Below, piece by piece: positions 23,788 through 62,345 of a stretch of DNA of 63,929 nt. The notes below the pieces were generated by a model, which was not told the origin of the DNA, did not search any database, and saw only the letters and a list, made by a program, of their open reading frames with translations. This stretch comes from a virus: IMG/VR virus record IMGVR_UViG_3300006923_003098, positions 1-63,929 of that record; one strand, 5' to 3'. A program made the position numbers and the translations under genes. Within the stretch, counting starts at the first letter, position 1. Every line of letters begins with the position of its first letter.

Positions 23788-23984
23788 CTTTTAAAGATAA
23801 AGTTGTAAACCTTATTTTGGAAAGAATATCGGAGGCAAGCAAGCATGTTCGGCAGCTGGAGAATGACAGTAGTAAATTTTCTGTTGCTCCAACTGATAAT
23901 AGTGTGTATATTGCTCGGGTAGGGTATCGAGAGGCCCTGCAGGATATTCTTTCCGAGATAAGGAGCATTAATGAAGTCGAATGA
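23784..23984 (+). CDS. Small unknown protein
   Basis: The 66-aa protein starts at ATG 23784, overlapping both the preceding stop (4 bp) and the following start (14 bp). It is a predicted helix - loop - helix protein (AYREALQDILSEI-like end). Its place between overlapping genes is the main support for it being real. Confidence 0.6.
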   Translation: MTFKDKVVNLILERISEASKHVRQLENDSSKFSVAPTDNSVYIARVGYREALQDILSEIRSINEVE

Positions 23985-25065
23985 TATAATTGAAATCTTT
24001 GAGCAAAAAAAGGAAGAAAAATTATTTTCGTTATTAAAATCTTTTGGAATAAAAACAGAGTATGTTGAGTTAGATAAGAAAAGATTTTTTGATATTTATA
24101 GCATAAAGTTGGCTAACGGGACTAGGTCCTCAAGGTTAGACCGAGTTCTTGTAGATGTAGGTATGGCTATGTCGTCTCACTCTCACCCCAATGGGTACCC
24201 CGTTATGAAGGACGGGGTATATAAGATCGAGGTACAAAGAGAAGAGATTGAGTCCCCTACTTTTATGCAGGTATATAATGCCTTTCCAAAGAATTATTAT
24301 GCCCCCATCGCTTTGGGTATAGACTCTTTTGGAGAACTTATGCATACAGACATTAATTCTATTCCGAACCTATTAGTGGGGGGCACTACTGGCTCTGGGA
24401 AGAGCGTTTTGCTTCACAGCTTTATTCTATCCCTATTGGGGTCGGATACAGACCTCTACTTGATAGACCCAAAAATGGTTGAGTTTGGTATTTATCGAGA
24501 TTTAAATTCGGTTAAAAAGATTGTGCATTCTGCTGAAGATGCGGCTTTTTTAATAGATGAGGTTAGGAGTATTATGGAGGTTAGGTTTTCATTGCTTCAT
24601 AAGTTTAAAGTTAGAAGTGCTGCCGAATATAATCGAGGAGCAAGTCCAAAGACTAGGTTGAGACCTATAGTTATAGTTGTTGATGAGTGGGCGGATATAG
24701 TTCTGCAGGATAAAGAGGTGCAGAAAACACTATGCCTTGTTGCTCAAAAAGGACGGGCTGCAGGTATATCTATTATTTTGGCCACACAAAGACCATCATG
24801 CAGGGTTGTCTCTGGGTTAATTAAAGCGAACTTTCCCGGAAGAATTGCCCTTAAGGTTGCATCCGCTGTTGACAGTAGGGTTATATTAGATCAGGGTGGT
24901 GCTGAAAAAATTTCTGATATAGGGACGGGGCTATACCTTGACGGTGGATTGTCAAAGCCCAAGCTTTTCCGAGCCCCAAATATAGTTGACATTCAAGGGG
25001 AATTGGCTAAAATAAACCCAATTGCTAAAAAGAAGCCATCGTTTTGGGGCAGGTTTTTATCTTGA
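23971..25065 (+). CDS. FtsK/SpoIIIE-like DNA translocase
   Basis: The 364-aa protein starts at ATG 23971 behind AAGGAG. Its core is the FtsK motor: Walker A GGTTGSGKSVLLH (about residue 135), LYLIDPKMVEF, Walker B IVIVVDEWAD (about 230), QKGRAAGISIILATQRPS and the FtsK-specific SRVILDQGGAE with GLYLDGG. It lacks the membrane domain of FtsK and a recognisable gamma (KOPS-reading) domain. Such soluble hexameric translocases pump double-stranded DNA; the large terminase at 60576 does the packaging, so this one may act in DNA segregation, replication restart or transfer. It is coupled to the primase zinc-domain gene by a 4-bp overlap. Confidence 0.93.
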   Translation: MKSNDIIEIFEQKKEEKLFSLLKSFGIKTEYVELDKKRFFDIYSIKLANGTRSSRLDRVLVDVGMAMSSHSHPNGYPVMKDGVYKIEVQREEIESPTFMQVYNAFPKNYYAPIALGIDSFGELMHTDINSIPNLLVGGTTGSGKSVLLHSFILSLLGSDTDLYLIDPKMVEFGIYRDLNSVKKIVHSAEDAAFLIDEVRSIMEVRFSLLHKFKVRSAAEYNRGASPKTRLRPIVIVVDEWADIVLQDKEVQKTLCLVAQKGRAAGISIILATQRPSCRVVSGLIKANFPGRIALKVASAVDSRVILDQGGAEKISDIGTGLYLDGGLSKPKLFRAPNIVDIQGELAKINPIAKKKPSFWGRFLS

Positions 25066-53245: not shown

Positions 53246-53271
53246 CTATTAAATTACTTTTTAAACGATTG

Positions 53272-53309
53272 AAGTCCCGGCTTATAGTAATATAAAGCTG
53301 GGACTTTTT
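53272..53309 (+). terminator. Rho-independent terminator
   Basis: AAGTCCCGGCTT (53272-53283) pairs with AAGCTGGGACTT (53295-53306), one G-T wobble, around an 11-nt loop, followed by T residues. It isolates the ExbB-like operon from the genes upstream. Confidence 0.9.
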
Positions 53310-53323
53310 AGTTTGGGGAAAAC

Positions 53324-53851
53324 ATGAATGAGAGAATAAAAAAGGGTAAGGACGAAATAGTCAAGCATAAATTATTTTTAAAATGGTGGCTAATGGTATT
53401 GCTAATAGCTATTTTTACAGGCTTTTGTTTTTTTGGCAATGTTTTTCATACAGTATGGGATAATGACGTAACAAAGTTAAGCTTTGTGATATTATCATTA
53501 TTTTATATACAATCAGCAATCTGCGGTATACAGACATGGAGCGTTGGCTATTATGGAGAAAATATAAACATACTGAGAGGCAAAGATATAAGGGAAAGTA
53601 TAGAGTCCGGCTGGTTTATGAGTGATTTATTTCTGTCGATAGGAATGGTAGGAACTGTTATCGGGTTTATATCTATGCTAGGTGGGTTTGCAACCTTAAA
53701 CGTTGACGACACCCAAACGGTGCAGGCCCTAATCAGAGACCTTGGCCTAGGAATGTCCACGGCTTTATACACGACACTGGTAGGCCTTGTGTGCAGCATT
53801 TTGTTAAAAATACAATATTTTATTTTAAGTCAAGGCGTAGGCGGTGATTAG
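53324..53851 (+). CDS. MotA/TolQ/ExbB-type proton channel subunit
   Basis: The 175-aa membrane protein starts at ATG 53324 behind GGGG. It has four hydrophobic segments, about residues 20-42, 50-68, 98-122 and 143-168. The third carries LSIGMVGTVIGFISMLGGF and the fourth LGLGMSTALYTTLVGLV, the hallmarks of the MotA/TolQ/ExbB family whose pentamers conduct protons around a dimer of an ExbD/TolR/MotB partner. It lacks the large cytoplasmic domain of MotA. The next gene, 3 bp away, encodes an ExbD-like partner. Confidence 0.85.
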   Translation: MNERIKKGKDEIVKHKLFLKWWLMVLLIAIFTGFCFFGNVFHTVWDNDVTKLSFVILSLFYIQSAICGIQTWSVGYYGENINILRGKDIRESIESGWFMSDLFLSIGMVGTVIGFISMLGGFATLNVDDTQTVQALIRDLGLGMSTALYTTLVGLVCSILLKIQYFILSQGVGGD

Positions 53852-53853
53852 GG

Positions 53854-54474
53854 ATGAAGCGAACATACAATACAAATGTTGCATTTTTAGACCTTTTATT
53901 TAATACACTACTATGCTTCGCTGCCCTTTTTGTTGTTGCTTTTGTTTTGGTCAACCCTGTTAGCGATGAGGGAAAAGTTGATGTTCATGCAGATTTTTTA
54001 ATAACAATATCTTGGCCAGAGGATGTCACTGATGATATAGACACTTACATTCAGGATCCACAAGGAAATGTGATTTATTTTGGCAACAAAGAGACTAGTC
54101 TGATACATTTAGATAGGGATGATTTAGGCGGAAATCATGATGCAGTGCAAACAGAGTTTGGTATAATTGAATATAAGGAAAATAGAGAAATCGTAACGAT
54201 AAGAAAGGTAATGCCTGGAGAATATGTTTTGAATTTACATATGTATTCAAAAAGAGTGCCAGAGCCGGCCATGGTTACAGTGCAGATTGATAAGATGAAC
54301 CCCTTTTCTACGGTTTTGCTGGAGACAATAACCTTGGAGAGAAGAGGCCAAGAAGAGACGGTGTGTAGAATAACTTTGAATTCCAATGGAGATGTGATAT
54401 CCATTAGTAACTTAGAGAAAGATCTTGTCAGAAAGGTCGGGGAAAGGCCGTGGAGTATGTCAAGATGGGATTGA
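53854..54474 (+). CDS. ExbD/MotB-like single-span membrane protein with beta domain
   Basis: The 206-aa protein starts at ATG 53854. A single N-terminal membrane helix (about residues 9-33) begins VAFLDLLFNTLLCF, in which Asp13 corresponds to the proton-carrying Asp of ExbD/TolR/MotB. The rest would lie in the periplasm: residues 45-110 have SWPEDVTDDIDTYIQDP, IYFGNK and LDRDDLGG, resembling DUF2135-like domains (Ca2+-binding-like Asp motifs), and then VMPGEYVLNLHMY. No OmpA-type peptidoglycan-binding domain is present, unlike MotB. Together with the upstream gene it should form an ion-driven stator-like complex. Confidence 0.75.
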   Translation: MKRTYNTNVAFLDLLFNTLLCFAALFVVAFVLVNPVSDEGKVDVHADFLITISWPEDVTDDIDTYIQDPQGNVIYFGNKETSLIHLDRDDLGGNHDAVQTEFGIIEYKENREIVTIRKVMPGEYVLNLHMYSKRVPEPAMVTVQIDKMNPFSTVLLETITLERRGQEETVCRITLNSNGDVISISNLEKDLVRKVGERPWSMSRWD

Positions 54475-55019
54475 CTATATCATTTGTTATATTATTTTCA
54501 TTACTTTTGTGGCTAATAATAGGCCTAAAGGGCAATTGGATCTTAAAGTCTGGAGTCATTCTTGTGGCCTTACTCTTTTCGGTGTCAACCATATCTTCTA
54601 TTGAAAATTTTTATGGATGGCCGACAACCCAGTTAATGCCGGAAGAATACAGGGTGTATTGGGCATTGGCCCAGGAGCCTGATGAGGCAAGGGGGGTAGG
54701 AGGGGCTATATACTTTTGGGCAGAAGGCCAAGATGGAGAATCTTGGCCTGAATCAAAAATGAGATTGTTAACCTTTGAAAACAATAGAATGAATGGAGTT
54801 CGTGCGTATAAGCTTCCGTATAGTACCGATATGCATGAGTTAGTCATAGCTATAGTCGAGAGGATAATTGCGGGAGAAGTTGTTGTAGCCTCATCTTTGG
54901 ACAATGATATTCCTGAAGAATTTATGTTTTCAGAAGAAAATGGCTCTAGTCAACAGGAATCTGATGATATTATATTTTACTCCTTGCCTCCGGCGGGAGC
55001 GATGAGGAAGGGAAACTAA
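54465..55019 (+). CDS. Membrane protein, third gene of the ExbB/ExbD-like operon
   Basis: The 184-aa protein starts best at ATG 54465 (GGAG at 54452-54455); a GTG at 54450 is the alternative. It overlaps the ExbD-like gene by 10 bp. Two adjacent N-terminal membrane helices (about residues 2-20 and 27-46) are followed by a soluble domain of 135 residues with WGLA-like aromatic residues and an acidic C-terminal end. No family is recognised. The conserved order suggests it is a third component of the complex. Confidence 0.7.
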   Translation: MGLTISFVILFSLLLWLIIGLKGNWILKSGVILVALLFSVSTISSIENFYGWPTTQLMPEEYRVYWALAQEPDEARGVGGAIYFWAEGQDGESWPESKMRLLTFENNRMNGVRAYKLPYSTDMHELVIAIVERIIAGEVVVASSLDNDIPEEFMFSEENGSSQQESDDIIFYSLPPAGAMRKGN

Positions 55020-57602: not shown

Positions 57603-58418
57603 ATGGGCCTTAATGATATTTTATTAAAAATATTCAGAATATGTGAGGAAAACTATATATCAGAGCCTTACATAGTTGGTGGTATTCCGCGAGATATTTA
57701 TTTAAATAGAGAAAATGATTTTAGAGATATTGATATAACAACCAATGATAGTGGCACCACCCGCCTGGGAATTACGTCTGCTTATGAATTAAAAAAAGCA
57801 TTTAAGGTATTCTCAGATAGTCATATTTCTGTTTTTTTAGAAAATAAAACTTTAGATTTTTCAAGTAATTTTATTTCCAGTGATGTTATAAGCTTTTTGG
57901 AGCAAGATCTTGGAATAACAGATCGGAAGCTTTTTGAGGTTTATAGTAGAGATTTTACTATAAACACTTTACATCAGAAGCTTTTGAAAGACGGCCTTAT
58001 AGATCCGACCAACAATGGTTTTAGAGATTTAGATAACAAGCTGATAAAAACTTGCGTCCCCGCAAAGATTACTTTGCAGGATGATGTAAGAAGGATTTTT
58101 AGAGCAGTAAATTTTGCTGCAAGACTTAACTTTAAAATAGATGGGGATATTGTGCAATATGCCCAAAACAATCGACGCTCTTTTACGGGTGAAAACAGAT
58201 GGAAATTAAAGGATGCATTTTTGACCTCATTAATTGGGGAGTCCATTGAGGCTAATGCAGACATAACGATGCATTATTTGGTCGAGATGGGTTTGCTGCC
58301 GATGGTTCCGATGATAGGTCGATTTAAAGAAGAGCTTATTAAGCGAAAGCTTGTAAACAAATATTTGGATGACGCTATTAATATGACTGATTATGAGCTG
58401 AAGAACATTGAGTCTTAG
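57603..58418 (+). CDS. cca: CCA-adding enzyme / poly(A) polymerase family nucleotidyltransferase
   Basis: The 271-aa protein starts at ATG 57603 behind GTGGAG. The class II tRNA nucleotidyltransferase head is complete: YIVGGIPRDIYLNR, the catalytic DIDI pair (FRDIDIT), SRDFTINTLHQ, DPTNNGFRDLDNKLIKT and DDVRRIFRAVNFAARL. It ends after the neck region, so the body and tail domains that clamp tRNA are shortened (typical length about 400 aa). It should repair or add CCA to tRNA 3' ends, or add tails to other RNAs. There are no tRNA genes in the window. Its place among packaging genes is odd. Confidence 0.92.
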   Translation: MGLNDILLKIFRICEENYISEPYIVGGIPRDIYLNRENDFRDIDITTNDSGTTRLGITSAYELKKAFKVFSDSHISVFLENKTLDFSSNFISSDVISFLEQDLGITDRKLFEVYSRDFTINTLHQKLLKDGLIDPTNNGFRDLDNKLIKTCVPAKITLQDDVRRIFRAVNFAARLNFKIDGDIVQYAQNNRRSFTGENRWKLKDAFLTSLIGESIEANADITMHYLVEMGLLPMVPMIGRFKEELIKRKLVNKYLDDAINMTDYELKNIES

Positions 58419-60575: not shown

Positions 60576-62345
60576 ATGGCAAAAAAAAAGAGTGAAGAAC
60601 AATTATTTGACCAATTAAAAACCAGCTTTCTAGATTTTGACCCCGCACATTTTGTTCAAAACAATTTAACCTTGGATGGTGCAGAGTTTACTATCTTAGA
60701 TAACGGCTGGAAGTTTATGGCCGATATCTATAGATATATTGCCCTACAGGCTACCCGTAAGGATGGCAAGCCTGTTGTTATCAAGAAGGGCCGACAGGTC
60801 GGTGCAACTGTTATGGCTGGAGCATTAGACTTGTTCTTCACAAATAGTGGTTTATTTTGCAATCCAAATATTCGAGTTGTACATTTATTTCCGGCCCTTG
60901 GGCAGGTAAAAAAGTTTTCTCAAGATAAACTAGAAACTCTAATAAGAACAGCAAAAAATGATTTTGTAACAAAGAATAAGCTTATTAGCTCAAACTCTGT
61001 TGACAACCTGACTATGAAGCAGTTTAACACTGGAACGCTATGGGTTGACAGTTTGGGGTCAGATGGCGATAGAATTCGTGGTATGACGGCAGATGTAGTG
61101 TTTTTTGACGAGGTTCAAGACATGTTTGGGCACGCCATTGGTAACGCTACAAAGATTTTAACCGCTGCGAAATATGGTCCAACAGGTCAGGGGGTTCAGG
61201 TTTTCTTTGGAACCCCGAAGGAAAAGAACAGTCACTTTTCTACGATCTGGGATATGTCAGACCAACGGTATTATCACCTGGGGTGTGTTAATTGCAGAAA
61301 AACCTATCCATTTTACCTTCCCGATGATGATAGATGGAGATCTATATGGCTATATGATAATATTGTGCAGTGCCCATTGTGTGGAACTAAGCAAAAAAAA
61401 GTTGAAGCTATAGAGTTAGGAAGATGGGTCGGGGCCGGTTCTGGCGATAGTGAATATGTTGGGTTTCATATAAATCAATTGTATATTCCATACTTTACTA
61501 GAGAAAATATAGAAAAATTGATGCCCGAAAATAATCCGGCCCAGACTGAAAGGATTTGGAAGAATGAAGTTATTGGTGAATTTTACTCTGGAGCCGGCGC
61601 ACCATTAACTAAGGCGGAGGTATATAAGCTGTGTAGAGATCCGGATAGATCTTTTGCCAAAAGTATAAGCCCGAATGAAAAATCAGTTTATTTAGGAGTA
61701 GACTGGGGCGGCAAAGATGATGACCCCAATTCAAGGGGCGGGCAATCATTCTCTTGTGTAGTAGTTATTTCCGCCTCTCCCGATGGAACTATATCTATTG
61801 AGCATGCTCATAAGTTGCGTAAAAATAATTTTGATTTTAAAAAAGAAACTATAAGAGAGATGTATAGGCGGTTCGGTGTGACAAGGGGGGTTTCAGATTG
61901 GTTTTTTGGACAAGATGTAGTTCATGATCTTCAAACAATGTATCGGGAAAGATTTCTAGGAGCACAAGGGAGTGGAAGTCTTTTAAAACCGGTAAAATAT
62001 AGAGAAGACGAATTGATTATATCTTATAATAAAGATTTACTTATAGATGAGTTAATTGATTTATTTAGAAAAGGCAAGGTTAGATTCCCTTGGAAAAGCT
62101 ATGAATATTTAGAGTGGTTGATAGACCACTGCACATCTATGGAGTCAAAAATAAAAATTTCTGGAGGGCAGCCTGTAAAGACATTCACAAAAGGCCCCAC
62201 TCCGAATGACGGATTTATGGCGCTTATGTATGCGTATATGGCTTATAAGTTTGATTTAACAAAGGGTTTTACTATTAAACCAGGGTTAGAGAGAAGAAGC
62301 GAATATCCAAGGTCTACTTTGGCAAATATTAAGAGGAGATTGTAA
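60576..62345 (+). CDS. terL: Terminase large subunit
   Basis: The packaging motor pumps DNA into the prohead using ATP and cuts it with its nuclease domain. The 589-aa protein starts at ATG 60576. It shows the ATPase part with KKGRQVGATVMA (Walker A, about residue 65), a Walker B-like VVFFDEVQDM (about 172), FFGTPKEKNS, a zinc ribbon (CVNCRK, CPLCGT) after about residue 230, then GVDWGG, the first nuclease Asp, and later GVSDWFFGQD. The zinc-ribbon insert recalls GpA-type terminases of large phages. It is followed by the portal gene after 2 bp. Confidence 0.95.
   Translation: MAKKKSEEQLFDQLKTSFLDFDPAHFVQNNLTLDGAEFTILDNGWKFMADIYRYIALQATRKDGKPVVIKKGRQVGATVMAGALDLFFTNSGLFCNPNIRVVHLFPALGQVKKFSQDKLETLIRTAKNDFVTKNKLISSNSVDNLTMKQFNTGTLWVDSLGSDGDRIRGMTADVVFFDEVQDMFGHAIGNATKILTAAKYGPTGQGVQVFFGTPKEKNSHFSTIWDMSDQRYYHLGCVNCRKTYPFYLPDDDRWRSIWLYDNIVQCPLCGTKQKKVEAIELGRWVGAGSGDSEYVGFHINQLYIPYFTRENIEKLMPENNPAQTERIWKNEVIGEFYSGAGAPLTKAEVYKLCRDPDRSFAKSISPNEKSVYLGVDWGGKDDDPNSRGGQSFSCVVVISASPDGTISIEHAHKLRKNNFDFKKETIREMYRRFGVTRGVSDWFFGQDVVHDLQTMYRERFLGAQGSGSLLKPVKYREDELIISYNKDLLIDELIDLFRKGKVRFPWKSYEYLEWLIDHCTSMESKIKISGGQPVKTFTKGPTPNDGFMALMYAYMAYKFDLTKGFTIKPGLERRSEYPRSTLANIKRRL

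Follow-up and report, generated by a model that had tools for sequence, protein, structure and literature searches.

The window analysed here, that is, the whole 63,929-base stretch of the virus record IMGVR_UViG_3300006923_003098, carries three adjoining genes that are predicted to encode membrane proteins and that we call A, B and C. An earlier description made from the DNA letters alone (the sequence-only reading below) had placed at this locus an ExbB/TolQ-type channel, an ExbD-like protein with a DUF2135-like domain and a third two-helix membrane protein, all overlapping or 2 bp apart and preceded by a strong terminator. The spacing is as described, and the terminator is borne out by a terminator-like hairpin: the segment 53266-53325 folds at -22.2 kcal/mol (z -5.1), and 0 of 200 shuffled versions were equally stable. 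The hairpin, which is absent from the list returned by a simple terminator scan, sets the A-B-C unit apart from the preceding genes. The features of the unit are as follows.

53271..53310 (stem-loop 53271-53307, then U's), plus strand: terminator-like hairpin with U-run, immediately 5' of A, from the fold
53324-53851, plus strand: gene A, 175 aa, ATG start
53654..53656, plus strand: codon Thr111 of A (G-x-x-G-T motif); Thr in 55/63 loci, Asn in 7/63, Ala in 1/63
53774..53776, plus strand: codon Thr151 of A (A-L-x-T-T-x-x-G motif); Thr in 63/63 loci
53854-54474, plus strand: gene B, 206 aa, ATG start, 2 bp past the end of A
53890..53892, plus strand: codon Asp13 of B, candidate ion-carrying residue, in 62/63 loci
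53986..54423, plus strand: DUF2135-like domain of B (DxDxxxxxP ... LDRDDLG ... PGEYxxN), from hhalign and conserved residues
54450-55019, plus strand: gene C, 189 aa, GTG start, 25 bp overlap with B; alternative in-frame ATG at 54465

Counts over 63 refer to distinct loci, the window included, after removal of 18 duplicates and with six stretches that hold a large protein set aside.

Protein A

The ExbB/TolQ-type assignment stands at the level of the family. A scores 33 bits against the Pfam family MotA_ExbB (PF01618; E 5.9e-8), above the gathering cut-off of 22.9; the A proteins of two other loci gave 26.8 bits (L001) and 22.6 bits (L004, slightly under the cut-off). When a profile built from 52 A proteins (50 of them of phage or viral origin, the others from Azospirillum and Kaiserbacteria, one each) was searched against solved structures in the PDB, the matches included MotA (2.2e-8, the best), ZorA (4.8e-7), PomA (5.7e-5), TolQ (3.5e-4) and ExbB (0.02). 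The MotA meant here is the flagellar stator protein; the MotA of phage T4 is a transcription factor. Against narrower models the scores were low, 13.2 bits for TolQ proper (NCBIfam TIGR02796, cut-off 221) and 21.7 bits for ZorA (NF033917, cut-off 500). Hydropathy gives four membrane helices for A of the window; of 62 loci, 36 have four by this measure, 15 have three and 11 have two.

Residues G107, G110 and T151 of A are invariant (63/63 loci), and both of its Gly-Thr pore motifs align with those of ExbB/TolQ-type genes that adjoin ExbD-family genes in the sampled genomes, the first falling on the GLLGTVxG motif of those genes. For the Ton motor, the figure legend of a review names Asp25, Thr148 and Thr181 as essential (PMC12905483); judging from the motifs, Thr111 and Thr151 of A would be the counterparts of Thr148 and Thr181. 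By these comparisons A is best classed as a minimal member of the MotA/TolQ/ExbB superfamily.

Protein B

An AlphaFold2 model of B (54 rows; mean pLDDT 88.7) consists of a helix at residues 7-33, with Asp13 close to the start of this membrane helix, followed by a beta-sandwich at about 45-190, a head that we take, from the charges, to lie in the periplasm. The sequence-only reading had called the Asp a key residue, and its conservation proved to be a matter of where one looks. Among phages it is nearly constant: it is counted in all but one of the 63 loci, and in aligned rows Asp13 is present in 67/70 from phages or prophages. The three other rows (L055, L060, L093) are clipped by the local alignment, and inspection by eye finds an Asp where the helix begins in each of them, L055 being also the one locus without it in the count of 63. 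Among chromosomal relatives or relatives from metagenome-assembled genomes (MAGs), in contrast, it is present in 6/15. Profile comparison with hhalign places Asp13 on the Asp of ExbD, a placement that is not significant (E 0.02, probability 2.4), and the ExbD/TolR family PF02472 has no match in the window at E<=1. In sequence and model B nonetheless has the predicted anatomy of an ExbD-like protein, with a single N-terminal helix bearing an Asp, and ion binding by Asp13 is a candidate role.

The DUF2135 label for the head was doubted at first because a plain Pfam scan of B gave no hit at E<=1, DUF2135 included, and was reinstated by a pairwise hhalign comparison with PF09906 (probability 98.1, E 8.3e-14, 115 columns). 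By profile, then, the B head is related to DUF2135, a family of which E. coli YfaP is an example. The 17 sampled matches to this family come from open frames that are 272 to 1150 residues long. Ten head positions (W54, D61, D63, L86, D89, G92, E112, G122, Y124 and N127) are invariant in 63/63 loci; our guess is that the conserved acidic residues may bind metal. The sets used for comparison were cut by a motif script that left out sequences without the search motif, and comprised 11 DUF2135 sequences from 17 loci, 29 TerD-type sequences from 25 loci and 21 ExbD-type sequences from 25 loci.

We also considered whether B belongs with the TerD tellurite-resistance proteins. The head matches three TerD structures with Z scores of 12.0, 10.5 and 10.0 (the best over 137 residues, rmsd 3.4), the next unrelated chain scoring 6.3. 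By sequence the match finds no support, hhalign giving a probability of 0.8 for the head and PF02342 having no match in the window; TerD is retained as a resemblance of fold only. Foldseek alone gave no match to the PDB at E<=0.001 for either B or C.

Protein C

The AlphaFold2 model of C (pLDDT 80.2) has the two helices that had been foreseen, at 2-25 and 30-54, then a small mixed domain, which we take to be periplasmic, and a tail. C of the window has no hit at E<=1 in Pfam (TonB and TolA families included), PADLOC or NCBIfam, and in PHROGs one at chance level (E 0.39). In structure searches the top second-look rows cover the helix pair only, and the best that the domain attains, with small-barrel proteins unrelated to one another or to C, is a Z of about 4 to 5, so that no fold match is convincing. 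BFVD holds six matches at E<=0.001, of which the named ones are uncharacterized or a BACON-domain protein. Relatives of C are found in 62/63 loci. By these searches neither B nor C lies above the cut-off of any curated family.

In some uncultured viral contigs and one Pootjesviridae phage, a short lipoprotein-like open reading frame (ORF) stands right 3' of C (L040 4810-5043, L042 4810-5043, L044 4729-4947, L004 6930-7052), and is possibly a fourth part of the unit.

Spread among phages and co-inheritance

A tblastn search with B of 50,697 phage records returned 30 at E<=0.01: 26 from Rhizobium or Sinorhizobium phages, including 16-3 (p040), and four from Caulobacter or Serratia phages. The Serratia record that was opened holds a large protein (~670 residues) with a B-type domain. 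In phage 16-3 the genes A, B and C are p038, p040 and p042, and in the five regions first opened all three are annotated as hypothetical protein or carry bare p-numbers. A scan of viral contigs yielded 70 loci from 176 candidate stretches, and one of genome contigs nine loci from 93 candidates, with A, B and C in 9/9. When profiles were run over 87 stretches, A and B were found together in 81 and C as well in 79 of those; the two stretches without C are L052, which ends within B, and L063, of which a more complete sister (L062) carries C on the upstream side of A. The remaining six hold only the large, distinct protein with the B-type domain. The survey of other phages for the same three genes that had been suggested therefore finds the full set in 62/63 distinct loci, including those of phage 16-3, large Rhizobium phages and uncultured viral contigs. 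A 131,661-base viral contig, a sister of the window, has an identical B.

With longest-ORF starts and overlaps included, the gap is no more than 20 bp between A and B in 55/62 loci and between B and C in 44/62. Where it is wider in L002, L083 and L084, it houses homing-endonuclease-type genes (that of L002 assigned by reading). The distance matrices of the three proteins correlate with one another (r 0.87, 0.78 and 0.88; maximum of 999 permutations 0.13). The arrangement is not a chance one, and A, B and C are inherited together as a unit; the correlation speaks to co-inheritance, not to contact.

The ~670-residue protein is common to six large phages of different hosts, phiCbK, KaOmega, DSS3_VP1, ChuuTotoro, ME3 and MaMV-DL02 (L079 2735-5207, L080 2753-5219, L081 2765-5198, L082 2756-5210, L085 2747-5189, L086 2756-5189). 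It shares the B-type domain, is far larger than B and is followed by an ORF of ~135 residues; no A or C was found beside it in these six stretches. We regard this phrog_1735-like pair as a second, different unit.

Comparison with known motors

According to a 2026 review, the 5:2 motor family comprises MotAB/PomAB, ExbBD, TolQR, GldLM and ZorAB (PMC12905483). The unit resembles ExbBD and TolQR in that A has both ExbB/TolQ pore motifs, B has one N-terminal helix with an Asp at the same place and the genes are adjacent. It is unlike them in the length of A (175 aa, against chain lengths of 244 for E. coli ExbB and 230 for TolQ), in the DUF2135-like head that B carries in place of the ExbD fold, and in its third protein, with two helices and nothing of TonB or TolA recognized by Pfam. 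With ZorAB of the Zorya system it shares ZorA models among the closest matches of A and a motor pair accompanied by further genes, but A is without the long additional portion found in ZorA (PDB chains of 280-729 aa), the unit is carried by phages, and a PADLOC scan, which covered the genes of the unit as possible ZorB, ZorC or ZorD partners, gave no hit for B or C. With the flagellar stators MotAB and PomAB it shares MotA as the best PDB hit of the A profile and the Asp in a single B helix, whereas the B head is DUF2135-like rather than peptidoglycan-binding. Because the ExbD and ZorA cut-offs were not reached, A-B-C should not be filed as ExbBD or Zorya, although it may work like them.

Given the family membership of A, the conserved Asp and motifs, and the constant pairing of the two genes, A and B probably form an ion-driven pair of the 5:2 kind. 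This motor reading rests on anatomy: sequences and models show the family of A, the Asp and head of B, the constancy of the A-B-C unit and its co-inheritance, and from there we infer stoichiometry, ion coupling and topology. Two alternatives are weighed here. A and B might join or compete with host TolQ/TolR or ExbB/ExbD, altering envelope stability or receptor traffic, which was one of the purposes offered by the sequence-only reading. The TolQ/ExbB ring motifs kept in A would suit such interference or replacement, as would the (non-significant) register of the B Asp with that of ExbD; however, B is without an ExbD profile match and its head is of the DUF2135-like type, and all three genes are kept together with distances that run in parallel, as one would expect of a self-contained machine more than of a decoy. 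We consider this distinctly improbable. The other alternative is a passive leak, in which the complex would admit protons and so time lysis or collapse the membrane potential with no mechanical output. A channel-type A, a conserved Asp13 and the holin-like genes near the unit in one lineage are consistent with a leak. It would leave unexplained the ten B-head positions that never vary and the keeping of C in 62/63 loci, and we hold it to be very improbable.

Chromosomal copies and the B tree

The sequence-only reading presented the unit as one found in a phage, a description that is too narrow, for many phages share it and it occurs in bacterial chromosomes as well. In 398 Pseudomonadota genomes B matched at E<=1e-6 in 23, with helix and head both covered in 16, one of these being the genome of the already known L087. 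Fourteen of the other 15 were retrieved and A, B and C were present in 14/14, the C of L203 being weak (E 0.0011). Of these loci L204 is prophage-like, and no phage genes were seen in the gene lists of L191, L193, L195 and L203, the four that were read. All three genes are also present in a pair of Azospirillum chromids (L165, L166) and in a Kaiserbacteria MAG (L095), the sole match among 379 genomes of that phylum. A tree built from 85 B proteins interleaves the chromosomal rows with those of phages, with 4 label changes of which at least 2 are forced. Since chromosomes hold A, B and C and the rows of the tree alternate, the machine is not restricted to phages. The same label changes, together with several long branches, leave a single origin in phages unsupported, and that proposal was dropped.

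In a clade of nine chromosomal units (L194-L202) inspection by eye shows Val at the place of Asp13, with an Asp one turn before it. In 6/9 of these, genes near C were assigned by reading to a metallophosphoesterase and a Ser/Thr kinase-like protein. In three other chromosomes a related protein follows C (L191 8136-8831, L192 7880-9013, L193 8172-8885), that of L191 being lipoprotein-like and ~230 residues long.

These copies bear on a further alternative, namely that the unit is of cellular origin, serves the envelope or uptake, and is kept by phages among their auxiliary genes for the benefit of the host, apart from lysis or exclusion. Its presence in the Pseudomonadota chromosomes (one of the 14 prophage-like), the Azospirillum chromids and the MAG, and the alternation of rows on the tree, would fit such a module. 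There is a precedent: an ExbB-annotated gene has been reported in Lentisphaerae phages and read as an auxiliary gene aiding TonB-type polysaccharide uptake (PMC11361711). That gene is, like A, a phage-borne ExbB-like one; the accessible part of the report mentions neither ExbD nor a three-gene unit. Also against this alternative are the strong conservation of the unit over very different phages, the phage A proteins being shorter than most chromosomal ones, and the lack of any TonB-type gene seen in the unit. We think a host-benefit module rather improbable.

Neighbouring lysis genes and protease

In 17/72 loci an endolysin or spanin homologue lies upstream of the unit, and the number becomes 21/72 if holin-like genes are counted along with the small membrane gene that adjoins them, all within 7 kb. 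The loci with lysis genes fall into three B lineages on the tree. L017 has a GH108 endolysin, a putative inner spanin and an Rz-like spanin upstream of A; L059 has a putative spanin pair ~2 kb upstream of A (spanin E 5.7e-4); L060 has a phage lysozyme; and in NV1.1.1 a GH19-like endolysin (under the Pfam cut-off) and holin-like genes precede the protease described below and A, with homologues of the NV1.1.1 lysis genes in likely prophages and in 16-3. Since the representatives were drawn from the very loci counted, this was not a blind count, and we do not claim the lysis link as a blind statistic. The count also includes weak endolysin hits (2e-5) in L090 and L091, identical B proteins in L069/L087, L072/L088 and L060/L093, and inner spanins and holins assigned by reading with no family hit.

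A trypsin-like protease is encoded within the stretch in 24/71 loci. The Ser motif is present in all 24, as is a hydrophobic segment close to the N-terminus that we take for an export signal, and in an alignment of 13 examples the His and Ser are invariant. The protease gene overlaps A by 4 bp in two Rhizobium phages, and of 27 phage records that match B, 23 have a match to the RHph_X2_25 protease too, as against 0/6 control phages with a protease. In RHph_I1_9 it lies ~75 kb away from the unit. phiM9 and KZY1 have the protease and no B match, an empty answer from that B search that shows little. Among 52 ABC-bearing records the protease was found in 14, three of them weak and five being records whose own protease is in the profile; it was accordingly rejected as a fixed fourth part.

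The surroundings admit another use of the unit, which is superinfection exclusion or the guarding of the envelope, whereby a motor-like complex in the infected or lysogenic cell would block or sense the entry of another phage. Zorya (ZorAB) is thought to respond to envelope disturbance and offers an analogy. In the PADLOC defence library the matches of A are chiefly ZorA models (best 2.6e-7), the unit is present in phage 16-3 and likely prophages and lies amid replication or nucleotide genes in two Rhizobium phages, and a periplasmic protease could attack parts of an incoming phage. On the other side, A scores far under the ZorA cut-off, B and C have no PADLOC hit and the unit stands downstream of lysis genes in three B lineages. 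We judge exclusion or envelope guarding somewhat unlikely.

A working model

The protease, and the lysis genes that neighbour the unit in three lineages, lead us to favor envelope work around lysis. The sequence-only reading had left the purpose among four options (envelope work, lysis timing, superinfection exclusion and interference with host Tol/Ton), and the neighbouring genes tilt it to lysis-linked envelope work without deciding it. Our working model, which is plausible though somewhat short of probable, is that A-B-C represents a previously undescribed branch of the 5:2-type ion-driven motors, one that phages direct at the envelope of the host, with lysis as the likeliest occasion. A, B and C would make up a single membrane machine in which A probably forms a pentameric ring with two B helices in its pore. 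Protons (or Na+) passing Asp13 of B and both motifs of A would move the DUF2135-like head of B in the periplasm, and C, the constant partner, may transmit the force or anchor it; we likewise infer a function for C and the part played in lysis. The phage would put the machine to use most likely late in infection, as an aid in breaking or loosening the outer membrane and the periplasm alongside the endolysin; the trypsin-like protease with its export-type N-terminus would take part in rhizobial phages. A stronger form of the model, with a separate phage branch of motors (A ring, B DUF2135 head, C transducer) spending the host ion gradient on pulling apart the outer membrane or periplasm at the end of infection, as an energised partner of or substitute for spanins, aided by a periplasmic protease in rhizobial phages, is unlikely.

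Several observations weigh against the model. As to the motor, 9/15 chromosomal or MAG relatives lack Asp13, all of them in one clade, and the match of the B helix to ExbD is below significance. As to lysis, 51/72 loci, the window included, gave no match to the lysis representatives, many flanks being short; the unit of the window is positioned between replication genes and the terminase large subunit gene, and that of the Pootjesviridae phage sits among gyrase, exonuclease and clamp genes. L017 and L059 possess spanin-like genes already, no lysis genes surround the chromosomal copies in the four gene lists read, and one chromosomal-type copy is in the Kaiserbacteria MAG, from a group not known to have a classical outer membrane. 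As to the protease, the RHph_X2_25 search hits 42 of the 50,697 phage records, 19 of the 42 lying outside the 27 with B; the share of ABC-bearing records with the protease is small (14/52), and it was not found in the window, the sister contig or RHph_I1_18. Since the unit can lie among replication genes, has copies in chromosomes and includes an A with a ZorA-like score, some probability stays with superinfection exclusion, envelope guarding and a host-benefit role beside envelope work around lysis.

Our literature search, which left preprints and most subscription papers outside, found no paper on the three-gene unit and none containing DUF2135. A term search of the AP-16-3 paper gave no mention of ExbB (PMC10460002), and a further paper concerns host ExbB in toxin import (PMC12042878). 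A full three-gene branch that is phage-borne and also chromosomal would add a class to the 5:2 motor family and, if the model is true, would place an energised envelope machine on the phage side. Because phage 16-3 of Sinorhizobium carries the unit, direct testing is possible.

Other genes of the window

Upstream of the unit the window encodes a DNA polymerase (39678), GroEL (45720), a UvsX-like recombinase (47377), a primase (48869) and a sigma-factor-like gene (49648); downstream, a tRNA nucleotidyltransferase is encoded at 57603 and the large subunit of the terminase at 60576. The tRNA nucleotidyltransferase gene spans 57603-58418, yet ARAGORN finds no tRNA gene in the record. The GroEL chaperonin encoded by the phage (45720-47366) matches phrog_5725 (E 2e-133), and an FtsK/SpoIIIE-like ATPase is encoded at 23971-25065 (phrog_1358, E 6e-68). 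The gene at 1425-2447 matches phrog_1211 (E 1e-68), whose description, 2-aminooxy adenylosuccinate synthetase, might point to modified adenine bases.

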